Source: a virus
Direction: 5' to 3' (one strand)
IMG/VR virus record: IMGVR_UViG_3300010149_000067
Coordinates: 1-34,336 of that record
DNA length: 34,336 nt
In this document: positions 1 through 34,336 of the stretch, in pieces
Layout of the letters: each line of letters starts with the position of its first letter
Numbering within the stretch: the stretch's first letter is position 1
Made by a program: the position numbers and the translations under genes
The notes under the pieces: model-generated
Seen by the model: only the letters and a program-made list of their open reading frames with translations
Databases searched by the model: none
What the model was told of the DNA's origin: nothing

Positions 1-12
1 CAGTCGCCGACG
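1..12. other. Left copy of 12-nt terminal repeat; candidate cos end
   Basis: The first 12 bases (CAGTCGCCGACG) are identical to the last 12 bases of the window. Joining the ends places this 12-mer exactly in the middle of a GTGCG-N16-CGCAC dyad. This fits the cohesive end of a lambda-type cos phage, and a Nu1/GpA-like terminase pair is encoded immediately downstream, as in lambda. The alternative is a short assembly overlap in a circular contig. The dyad and the terminase type favour cos; the strand polarity of any overhang cannot be told from sequence. Confidence 0.55.
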
Positions 13-96
13 CTCGCACCTTTTATGCATATAGGTCAAAAAGCCAAAAGTGACAAAACGGCGCAGCGCACCCCCCCCGACCCCAAAACGTAAACC

Positions 97-618
97 ATGA
101 GCAGCAACGCAACCGATCTGAAACCAGATGCGTCACAACCTGACAAACTGACCGCGACCAATTTAGCCAAGGCTCTGGGCATCGCCCGCAAGACGCTTTA
201 CCATCTGCGCAAGACCGAAGGCGGCCCGAAGGCAAACGACTTGCGAGCTTGGCAAGCCTACCTTGAAGAGCGCGCCTTGACCACACGCGACGGCAAGAGT
301 GATGAACACCTGACGCAAGACTTACAGACGCTCAAGCGGCGACTGCTCTCGGCCCAAGCTGGCAAAGAGGAGGCGGTCAGGCAACTGAAGGAATTGCAGT
401 TGCAGCGAGAGCGTGACGGGCTTGTGCCGATGTCGGAGGCACGCGAGGCAATCAACCGGACGTTACAGCCTTTGCGCCAGTTGCTCGATGCCTTGCCGAG
501 AGCGGCGGCACTGGCAGCCAATCCAACCGAACCAGCGCACGCCGAGGAGGCAATCCGAGAGGAATTAGACAAGGTTTTCCGCATGATCCAAGAGGGGGAA
601 AATGAGCAAGACGCTTGA
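97..618 (+). CDS. Terminase small subunit, Nu1-like
   Basis: 173 aa. Residues about 18-57 form a helix-turn-helix segment (LTATNLAKALGIARKTLYHL, then a short wing-like stretch), as in lambda Nu1, which binds cos DNA. Residues about 70-105 are a charged coiled coil, probably for self-assembly, followed by a helical C-terminus that would contact the large subunit. It is the first gene after the presumed cos site and overlaps the large terminase gene by 17 nt, suggesting translational coupling. The sequence itself shows HTH plus coiled coil; the name rests on these and on gene order. Confidence 0.8.
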   Translation: MSSNATDLKPDASQPDKLTATNLAKALGIARKTLYHLRKTEGGPKANDLRAWQAYLEERALTTRDGKSDEHLTQDLQTLKRRLLSAQAGKEEAVRQLKELQLQRERDGLVPMSEAREAINRTLQPLRQLLDALPRAAALAANPTEPAHAEEAIREELDKVFRMIQEGENEQDA

Positions 619-2404
619 CGAGTTCGCACGCGAGGCGTTTGCGTATCGCGCCCCGTTATCGGTCGAGGATTGGGCGACTAAATCGGTTGAGCTTTCGGAG
701 CGAGTGACCGAACAGGCTGGCCCCTATACGACCAAAAATCACCCATACGTTTGCGAAATAATTGAGGCAATCCGCAACCCAAGGATCAACAGAGTTTCGC
801 TTTGCTGGGGATCGCAGACGGCAAAGACAACCAGCTTTTATGTCATGCTCGGCTTTGTAATTGATCAAAAGCCGAAGCCGATTTTGTGGGTTTTCCCCAA
901 TGAGAAATTATGCAAAACGTTTGCGGCTGATCGCTGGATGCCATTTTGCCGCGAGTCGAGCGTGATCGCAAAACACTTGCCGCTTAACGGCGAGGGCGGG
1001 ATTGATTCGGACAAGTTCACGCTGACGAAACAAGAGTTTTCACGCTGCACAATGAACCTTGTCGGAGCGGGATCATCGGCCAACGTGCGCAGTTATCCAG
1101 TCAGCGTTTTGGTGTTGGATGAGATCGACGTGATTCCCGAAGGCACGCGCCGCGAATGCCTAGACCGAACGAAGGGAAAGCAGGATTTTACAATCCTCCA
1201 AAGCTCGACCCCCATCAGCGAAACGGGGGGAATCTGGCAAGAGTTCATGGAAGGCGACCGCCGCCGCTTTCATATCCCATGCCCGCATTGCGGGGAGCGT
1301 TTTGTTTTCCGCTGGCTCAATGATGAGGGCAAGCGCAATCTGCAATGGAGCGAGGAGGCAAAAGGCAAGGGTGGCGAGTGGAATATGCGCGAGGTCGAGA
1401 GGTCTGCGCGATACGTCTGCGAGCAGTGCGGGGAACCCATCAGCGACATTCACAAGATGAAAGCACTGCGCGCGGGCAAGTGGATCGCGGGCAACAGCAA
1501 CTCTGAGCGGGGCGTTCGGTCTTATCATCTCAATAGCTTTTATTCGCCTGTTTTGACCTTTGGGCGGATCGCTGTTGAATACCTCAAAGCATCAAAGACA
1601 ATCGAGGGCGAAAAGGCTTTCACCAATGGCTGGCTTGCCGAGCCTTGGCGGCCTGACATTGAGGGGCCAGTTGACGCCAAAGCATTCAGGGAGCATGAGG
1701 GCGAATTTGAGCGGGGCGAAATCGCTGGCGATTATCGGTTGATCGCTGCCGACGTTCAACGCGATCACTTTGTTTGGATTGTGCGCGGCTTTGATCGGGA
1801 CGGGCGCAGCTATTTGATCGACAACGGGCTTGCGTATACGTTTGAAGATTTGCACGCCATCGGCCAAAAATACGCGTGCGCAAAAGGCATCATTGACACG
1901 GGGTATCGCACCCAAGAAATTTACGAAGCGATCTTCAACTTTCGCCCGTTTTGGTTTGGCGCAAAGGGCCAAGACAAAATGCAAACCAGTTACCGGATCA
2001 ACAACCTTGACCCGTTCGCGCATGACCAAAGAAACGGCAAGGCCACGGTCGTATTGTGTCACCTAAATAAAGACATCTGGCAACAAGAGATGTTGCGCAA
2101 GCGATCTGGCGCGGCGATGAATTGGCACGTATACAGGGGGCCAGACTCGGAATATATCCGTCAAATGCTTTCAACGAATTTAGTCGAAAGCACAAACAAA
2201 CGCGGCCAGATTGTGCGCGAATGGAAAGTTGCGGGTCACAAACAGGATCACTTTTGGGATTGCGAAACCTATTGCCTCGCGTTGGCCCATATCTACGGAC
2301 TGACCGGAGCCAAAGCAAAACAGCGGGACGAAGCCCACAAGGTTGAAAAGACAAAGCGACGCGCACCGCGTCGGCAGTCTCAAGACGAAGAAAGTATTTG
2401 GTAA
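602..2404 (+). CDS. Terminase large subunit, lambda GpA family
   Basis: 600 aa, the usual size for GpA-type packaging motors. It should pump DNA into proheads by ATP hydrolysis and cut cos. Visible motifs: Walker-A-like GSQTAKT at residues 70-76, Walker B VLVLDEID at 169-176 with D173/E174, a zinc ribbon with Cys 227/230 and 273/276, and C-terminal nuclease acidic residues near D384 (IAADVQRD) and D432 (GIIDTGYR). The variant Walker A is typical of this family. The ATG overlaps the small subunit gene, and the stop is directly followed by the next ATG. Confidence 0.95.
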   Translation: MSKTLDEFAREAFAYRAPLSVEDWATKSVELSERVTEQAGPYTTKNHPYVCEIIEAIRNPRINRVSLCWGSQTAKTTSFYVMLGFVIDQKPKPILWVFPNEKLCKTFAADRWMPFCRESSVIAKHLPLNGEGGIDSDKFTLTKQEFSRCTMNLVGAGSSANVRSYPVSVLVLDEIDVIPEGTRRECLDRTKGKQDFTILQSSTPISETGGIWQEFMEGDRRRFHIPCPHCGERFVFRWLNDEGKRNLQWSEEAKGKGGEWNMREVERSARYVCEQCGEPISDIHKMKALRAGKWIAGNSNSERGVRSYHLNSFYSPVLTFGRIAVEYLKASKTIEGEKAFTNGWLAEPWRPDIEGPVDAKAFREHEGEFERGEIAGDYRLIAADVQRDHFVWIVRGFDRDGRSYLIDNGLAYTFEDLHAIGQKYACAKGIIDTGYRTQEIYEAIFNFRPFWFGAKGQDKMQTSYRINNLDPFAHDQRNGKATVVLCHLNKDIWQQEMLRKRSGAAMNWHVYRGPDSEYIRQMLSTNLVESTNKRGQIVREWKVAGHKQDHFWDCETYCLALAHIYGLTGAKAKQRDEAHKVEKTKRRAPRRQSQDEESIW

Positions 2405-33621: not shown

Positions 33622-33781
33622 ATCCCCCTTGGCACCTGACCCGAAAGAAAGTCTTGGCTGGCTACGCAAGCGGATTGCGAAGCTCGAAAACGAATTGGCC
33701 GCCCTCAAGGAACGCGAGGCACGTCTTGCCAAAAGGGCAGCCGATAAAAATCAACCCACTCTTTTTTTGCTCGATGAGTGA
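33605..33781 (+). CDS. 58-aa coiled-coil protein
   Basis: 58 aa. A single heptad helix (LRKRIAKLENELAALKEREARL) and a hydrophobic end (TLFLLDE). Start and stop overlap the neighbouring genes (17 nt; TGATG), which supports a real gene. Its DNA contains GCAAGCGGATTGC, one base from the perfect operator palindrome. Confidence 0.55.
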   Translation: MSERNESPLAPDPKESLGWLRKRIAKLENELAALKEREARLAKRAADKNQPTLFLLDE

Positions 33782-34161
33782 TGACTGAAGATGGGCGCAC
33801 ATATGAGGGCCAAACGGACTTTGACTTTGACGCCATAGATCGCGGCCTGAGTACCTACGCCGCCCGCGCGCCAGACGCTTCGCACTCGGCAGCGGCTCAA
33901 GATGCGATCGCAAGGTTGCTTGCGTTTGTCTGTCATTCTGGCGATGCTAAAAAATCCGCGCACAAATTTATTGCGTTTGTTTATGTGTTGCGTCCTGACT
34001 TACTCGGCGGCTTGCCTATCCGCTCGATTGCCTCGCAACTTGAGATTCCGCGCACAAACTTTGAACGCGAAGTTTCGCGCGCCAGAAAGTCGCTGAAGTT
34101 TGATGGCATTTTGAGAGAACCAAACAGAAGTTTTTCGCGCAAAAATCGCGGCAAGAAGTGA
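33781..34161 (+). CDS. HTH protein, candidate late regulator
   Basis: 126 aa from ATG 33781 (GTG 33778 is also possible). The C-terminal part GLPIRSIASQLEIPRTNFERE followed by VSRARKSL reads as a helix-turn-helix with the look of sigma-70 region 4 or a related activator. It is the last gene before cos and the terminase genes, a usual place for late-gene activators. Function is inferred from motif and position. Confidence 0.55.
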   Translation: MTEDGRTYEGQTDFDFDAIDRGLSTYAARAPDASHSAAAQDAIARLLAFVCHSGDAKKSAHKFIAFVYVLRPDLLGGLPIRSIASQLEIPRTNFEREVSRARKSLKFDGILREPNRSFSRKNRGKK

Positions 34162-34192
34162 ACAATCCTAACAAAAACGCAAGCATCGCCTC

Positions 34193-34294
34193 AAAATCAA
34201 AACACGCTAAAAGAGGCAAAAGCACGCAAAAACCTTGAAAAGAATTTCTGAAAACAGCTAAAAATGCGCAAAAATAGCCAAATACACCCAAAAA
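34193..34294. other. Phased A-tracts: intrinsically curved DNA next to cos
   Basis: A-tracts of 3-5 bases start at 34199, 34209, 34218, 34228 and 34238, then at 34251, 34260, 34270, 34280 and 34290. That is two sets of five with 9-10 bp spacing, one helical turn each. Such phasing produces intrinsic curvature. It lies in the only non-coding stretch at the right end (34162-34336), 30 bp from the terminal repeat, so it may help terminase or a host bending protein assemble at cos. Confidence 0.7.
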
Positions 34295-34324
34295 GGTACT
34301 GCTGTGAATTGCAAGAAGTGCGCC

Positions 34325-34336
34325 CAGTCGCCGACG
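34325..34336. other. Right copy of 12-nt terminal repeat; candidate cos end
   Basis: Identical to bases 1-12. On joining the ends, GTGCG (34319-34323) and CGCAC (15-19 of the left end) flank the 12-mer at equal 2-nt distances, giving exact twofold symmetry about its centre. The symmetry is expected for a site cut by a terminase dimer. Confidence 0.55.

Follow-up and report, generated by a model that had tools for sequence, protein, structure and literature searches.

The uncultivated phage genome IMGVR_UViG_3300010149_000067, analysed here over its full 34,336 nucleotides (the window), carries ten phased A-tracts immediately to the left of what appears to be a lambda-type cos site, and the DNA that they form is predicted to be naturally curved. 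Our best explanation, to which we assign a probability of about 45%, is that this array is the outer, cosQ-side wing of cos, a static bend that would help terminase to recognise cos or to pause there.

A phased A-tract array at the right end of the genome

Direct reading of the sequence places the tract starts at 34199 (A4), 34209 (A4), 34218 (A4), 34228 (A5) and 34238 (A4) in the first block, and at 34251 (A4), 34260 (A5), 34270 (A5), 34280 (A3) and 34290 (A5) in the second. Successive starts are separated by 10, 9, 10, 10, 13, 9, 10, 10 and 10 bp, which agrees with the initial annotation of ten A-tracts at 9–10-bp steps with one 13-bp step. Two corrections apply: the range given there, 34193–34294, opens on an additional A4 that precedes the first array tract by 6 bp and is out of register, and the ninth member is weak, consisting of AAA only (AAATA). 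The region had also been described as non-coding, and on the plus strand it is: the last gene stops at 34161, upstream of the array, and no plus-strand gene crosses it. Because the array steps of 10 bp are not multiples of 3, a coding origin was rejected for this strand; an open minus-strand frame overlaps the array region (Table 1).

The centres of the two blocks lie 51.9 bp apart, and the offset between them is only −3 degrees at 10.4 bp per turn. The 13-bp step therefore acts as a phase correction, keeping the half-arrays in helical phase so that together they would give a single large bend, planar and roughly 100 bp long. Equal phasing was reached in 9 of 2000 trials when the same A/T-tracts were placed at random. 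Curvature was calculated with simple wedge models (AA-wedge and Bolshoy, with manually entered wedge parameters). Under the AA-wedge model the array comes first in the genome for curvature at stretch lengths of 60, 90 and 120 bp, and under the Bolshoy model it ranks fourth at 90 bp and third at 120 bp. Block shuffles that kept every A-tract matched its curvature in 8 of 2000 cases, and dinucleotide shuffles did so in 1/500 (AA-wedge) and 4/500 (Bolshoy). Tracts of A4 or longer thus recur every ~10–10.5 bp above chance, as in intrinsically bent phased A-tract DNA, and the strong curvature first proposed, with curvature prediction as its suggested check, is borne out by prediction.

Table 1. Positions of the array, the predicted cos elements and the neighbouring genes in the window
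Feature	Position	Strand	Basis or remark
cosN, left copy of 12-bp cohesive end	1..12	.	shared first base of contigs L001, L003 and L009
Left flank of cosN: CTCG, T-run 21-24 (like lambda I2), TCAAAAAGCCAAAAGTGAC at 36-54	13..58	+	conserved in L001, L003 and L009; candidate cosB side
terS (small terminase), predicted to have an HTH at the N-terminus and long helices	97..618	+	phrog_57, E 2.8e-9; AlphaFold2 pLDDT 75
terL, lambda GpA-type large terminase	602..2404	+	phrog_15, E 1.1e-108
Last gene before array: small HTH protein with DFDWDAIDP and weak similarity to sigma-70 region 4	33778..34161	+	
Open minus-strand frame overlapping array region	34016-34336	-	
Two extra A-tracts out of array register (34173-34177, 34193-34196)	34173..34196	+	direct reading
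Block 1, five A-tracts, steps 10, 9, 10, 10 bp	34199..34241	+	direct reading; phase coherence of 0.84 among its tracts (10.4-bp pitch)
Block 2, five A-tracts, steps 9, 10, 10, 10 bp, fourth = AAA	34251..34294	+	direct reading; phase coherence of 0.85 among its tracts (10.4-bp pitch); phase agrees with that of block 1
cosQ-like hexamer GGTACT, set exactly 30 bp to the left of cosN	34295..34300	+	GGTWCT at -30 in 6/6 complete genomes; cos-region alignment
cosN, right copy of 12-bp cohesive end CAGTCGCCGACG	34325..34336	.	12-bp terminal direct repeat; same length, different sequences in other complete relatives

A predicted lambda-type cos site

A 12-bp terminal repeat is present in six complete genomes: the window itself and those of five relatives whose TerL is 64% down to 30% identical to that of the window. 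The six repeats are all different (CAGTCGCCGACG, GTGCGGTCGCAG, TGACGCAAGGCA, CCGCGACCGCGG, GAGCGGCCGCGA and AACCGGGCGCGG); that of G015 has one additional matching base beyond the 12 bp, and contig L145 reads across the joined end of G010. Three contigs with 97–100% identical terL (L001, L003 and L009) start at the first base of the window, the end of L009 having diverged to CGGCCGCCGACG. An assembly artefact was rejected as the source of the repeat, since six records share its length but not its sequence and separate contigs have a common first base. We infer a 12-nt 5' overhang: if such ends were filled in, each end of the genome would carry the same 12 bp.

The last A-tract of the array directly adjoins a putative cosQ, an element with a role in termination of packaging (PMC4669245). 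The motif GGTWCT stands at exactly the same distance from cosN in the window and in each of the other five complete genomes, and the same analysis places the cosQ core of lambda and N15, GGTCCT, 29 bp left of cosN. On the other side, the gap between cosN and terS is only 84 bp and includes one conserved A-rich stretch (36–54). Fixed 12-bp ends, cosQ at −30 and a TerL of the GpA family together make the assignment as a lambda-type cos site, with cosQ, cosN and the T-run as positioned in Table 1, well supported by sequence. The location beside cos that the initial annotation gave to the array is thus sustained by the terminal repeats, the common contig start and the fixed spacing of cosQ. An SPP1-type pac site, with headful packaging and variable ends, was set aside because the ends are fixed at 12 bp in six genomes. 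The arrangement GGTWCT, 24 bp and a 12-nt repeat may serve as a practical rule for recognising the true ends of uncultivated phages. A search of viral contigs with a cosN/cosQ DNA pattern gave 18 matches, none with a terminase relative, and these were judged to be due to chance.

Two further observations concern the same region. In most relatives a run of 5–9 C lies 5–15 bp left of GGTWCT, and in several a G-run follows the motif (sites at L142:750-795, L264:4410-4455, L152:30-80, L280 and L297), so that in these relatives cosQ could sit in a stem loop. Contig L165 begins with Nextera-type adapter sequence (1–31) fused near the cos end.

Recurrence of the bend among relatives

Right cos flanks for comparison were taken from complete records or from contigs spanning cos; L001, L003 and L009, which supply left ends only, were left out. 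With the AA-wedge model, curvature peaks left of cosQ, over the whole genome or over the available sequence, in the window, G017, G030 and L142, and in L269 this position tops the 5.8-kb contig. In the window, G030, L142 and L269 the curvature there also exceeds that of AT-matched segments of the same genomes. The predicted bend is kept while the spacers and sequences of the arrays are unrelated, and the strand that carries the A-tracts differs: A on the plus strand in the window and G030, T in G017, and a mixture in L142 and L269. The bend of L142 lies next to cosQ in spite of genes between cos and terS, with the array ~2.47 kb and cosQ 2.39 kb before terL.

Empirical p-values were calculated per genome for a 250-bp test segment and combined by Fisher's method. 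Over the eight core relatives, with the window excluded, the combination gives 1.8e-6 (AA-wedge) and 1.3e-5 (Bolshoy), values that are optimistic because the segment was chosen after the first cases had been seen. For the distant group with TerL of about 30% identity the combined p is ~0.01, carried by G030 and L282, and most members of that group are without a bend left of cosQ.

The signal is marginal in G015 and L264, and the wedge-model calculation gives no clear bend left of cosQ in G010, G029 and L012; in L012, cosQ follows directly on the HTH gene and leaves no room for an array. G010 and G019 have unphased, low-complexity T-rich blocks at the array position (GTTT-rich and CTTT-rich, respectively). 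Nor is the geometry fixed: bend centre and cosQ are anywhere from about 35 to 185 bp apart. Conservation of phasing, put forward in the initial annotation as a test, is clear in the window, G017 and G030 but is lacking in G019, G010 and G015.

Curved DNA occurs elsewhere in two of these genomes. The strongest bend of G019 (L161:339-429) is on the terminase side of cosN, ~340 bp in, and has A- and T-tracts set close together. In G015, the AA-wedge model puts the strongest curvature away from cos, ~5.5–6.0 kb from the right end of the genome in L210, where T7 tracts spaced by CGAGGGG and GCCTCTG are repeated over a long block.

How a bend beside cosQ might act

If the array is a static-bend wing of cos, the layout would read curved block, cosQ (GGTACT), 24 bp, cosN (12 nt), T-run and terS, and the pre-bent DNA would presumably be recognised by its shape and not by its sequence. 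On concatemeric DNA, the bend could help the small terminase and TerL to assemble at cos. Alternatively, it could make the motor slow down and register cosQ and cosN when the end of a genome arrives; the bend may serve either initiation or termination. This proposal has precedents. The small terminase of SF6/SPP1 has been proposed to select intrinsically bent DNA of ~100 bp (PMC4737164); that of HK97 needs a deformable A-tract, and the model for HK97 has the motor stall at cos (PMC11331095). In lambda, packaging requires I2, itself a static bend (PMC4856287).

A broader version of this reading seems unlikely to us as it stands: that these viruses form an uncultivated group of lambda-type cos phages with a dedicated shape signal on the cosQ side, in which selection would keep the curvature while leaving sequence and A-strand free, and in which terminase would recognise, or pause at, the genome end through the bend without a host bending protein. 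Understanding of how cos phages signal the end of the genome to the motor is still partial. On the cosB side of lambda, static bends are already known, and cosQ, which signals termination, is known as a short sequence. A bend that recurs next to cosQ irrespective of sequence would, if real, suggest that DNA shape takes part on the termination side too. Relatives with and without a bend around the same cosQ offer a clean pair of test sets.

Genes flanking cos and a possible late promoter

The large terminase matches phrog_15, the terL family; the assignment to GpA rests also on INPHARED relatives and on general knowledge. Foldseek gave no significant match for the model of TerS, with weak likeness to a winged HTH, nor for that of the HTH protein encoded before the array, with weak likeness to sigma region 4. 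A gene with the N-terminal DFDWDAIDP motif and HTH is also the last before cos in G017, G015, G010, L142 and L012 (copies at L204:438-884, L210:229-681, L208:1009-1461, L142:159-566 and L012:1978-2289). INPHARED returned no match to the whole window by megablast and none to a relative of the HTH protein by tblastn. Within the sequence collection, the right-end gene retrieved one weak additional relative only (L012), and the rep protein retrieved none. A near relative of the window (L002:1-1350, terL 97%) has a cos-like left end, and an inserted methylase-like gene then separates cos from terS.

Phased A-tracts are a classic feature of the DNA upstream of promoters, and the array lies between the sigma-region-4-like HTH gene and a late operon starting with terS. 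It could therefore be the curved upstream DNA of a late promoter, aiding RNA polymerase or the HTH regulator across the joined cos, and the repeated occurrence of that gene as the last before cos, in the window and the five relatives just named, is consistent with this. We regard such a function as possible but doubtful. A search confined to sigma-70-like promoters found none in 33700–34336 or in 1–700. The HTH gene and the array are also uncoupled: G030 has the strongest array without an HTH neighbour, and G010, G015 and L012 have the HTH gene without a strong array. Moreover, L142 and G017 have enough sequence between cos and terS to accommodate other genes.

Drift and host bending proteins

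The right end offers only one sizeable non-coding spot, and this could drift towards A/T-richness by slippage, with the helical spacing derived from degenerate 10-bp tandem repeats and no selection on curvature. Such an origin would account for the unphased low-complexity blocks that G010 and G019 have at the same place, and the block of G017 indeed reads as a 10-bp tandem array, while the window gives weak period-10 repeats. We nevertheless find it unlikely that the array is such a by-product. By eye, the spacers in the window, G030, L142 and L269 are not repeats of one another, and TRF detects no tandem array in the G030 block. The curvature above AT-matched segments in these same four sequences and the 13-bp step, which restores phase and is not favoured by slippage, likewise argue against it.

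The initial annotation had suggested that lambda uses IHF to bend cos and that curvature built into the DNA could here free packaging from a host bending protein. Its first half does not hold for IHF as the sole means, since I1 (~35 degrees) and I2 (~28 degrees) of lambda themselves contain static bends, and bends have been reported on both sides of cosN (PMC4856287); built-in curvature at cos is thus a known principle. Its second half survives as predicted curvature beside cos that recurs in relatives, but not as a counterpart of the IHF site. The array lies left of cosQ, whereas the IHF site I1, in cosB, and the static bend I2 are across cosN from that position (PMC4856287), so the array is no positional substitute for I1. 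As to the host protein INDEPENDENCE, the sole relatives of terL in the genome collection (33%) are in two Verrucomicrobia MAGs (L298 and L299), which give HU/IHF-superfamily matches only, below the IHF-beta cut-off. That no match exceeds this cut-off is suggestive at most, and HU/IHF-superfamily proteins are present in both. Strong predicted curvature beside cos notwithstanding, a built-in replacement for the IHF bend of lambda cosB is highly improbable, given the wrong side of cosN and the growth of lambda without IHF at ~30% yield (PMC4856287). The host of the phage is probably an uncultivated bacterium, and the two MAGs provide a hint of its phylum.

Comparison with known packaging signals

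Viewed as a static-bend wing of cos, the array finds its nearest counterparts in lambda and N15. The window shares with them a GpA-type TerL, 12-nt ends, a GGTNCT cosQ 29–30 bp left of cosN, a T-run just right of cosN and static bending as part of cos. The ten phased A-tracts left of cosQ set this phage apart from lambda and N15, in which the same calculation gives no curvature of this kind at that place, and the known static bends of lambda, with its IHF site, are mainly on the cosB side, unlike the cosQ-side array described here. Curved DNA upstream of bacterial or phage promoters likewise places phased A-tracts before an operon in non-coding sequence, but in these relatives the position of the curved block follows cosQ, not terS.

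The pac site of SPP1/SF6 resembles the array in that the DNA next to the terminase cut is intrinsically bent over ~100 bp, with shape readout proposed, although SPP1 is a headful phage and this one has fixed 12-nt cos ends. HK97 also has A-tract DNA at cos, the deformability of which is used by its terminase. Its single A-tract, however, is on the downstream side, at +15 to +29, and its ends are 10-nt 3' overhangs, whereas the phage analysed here has ten A-tracts on the upstream side and 12-nt ends.
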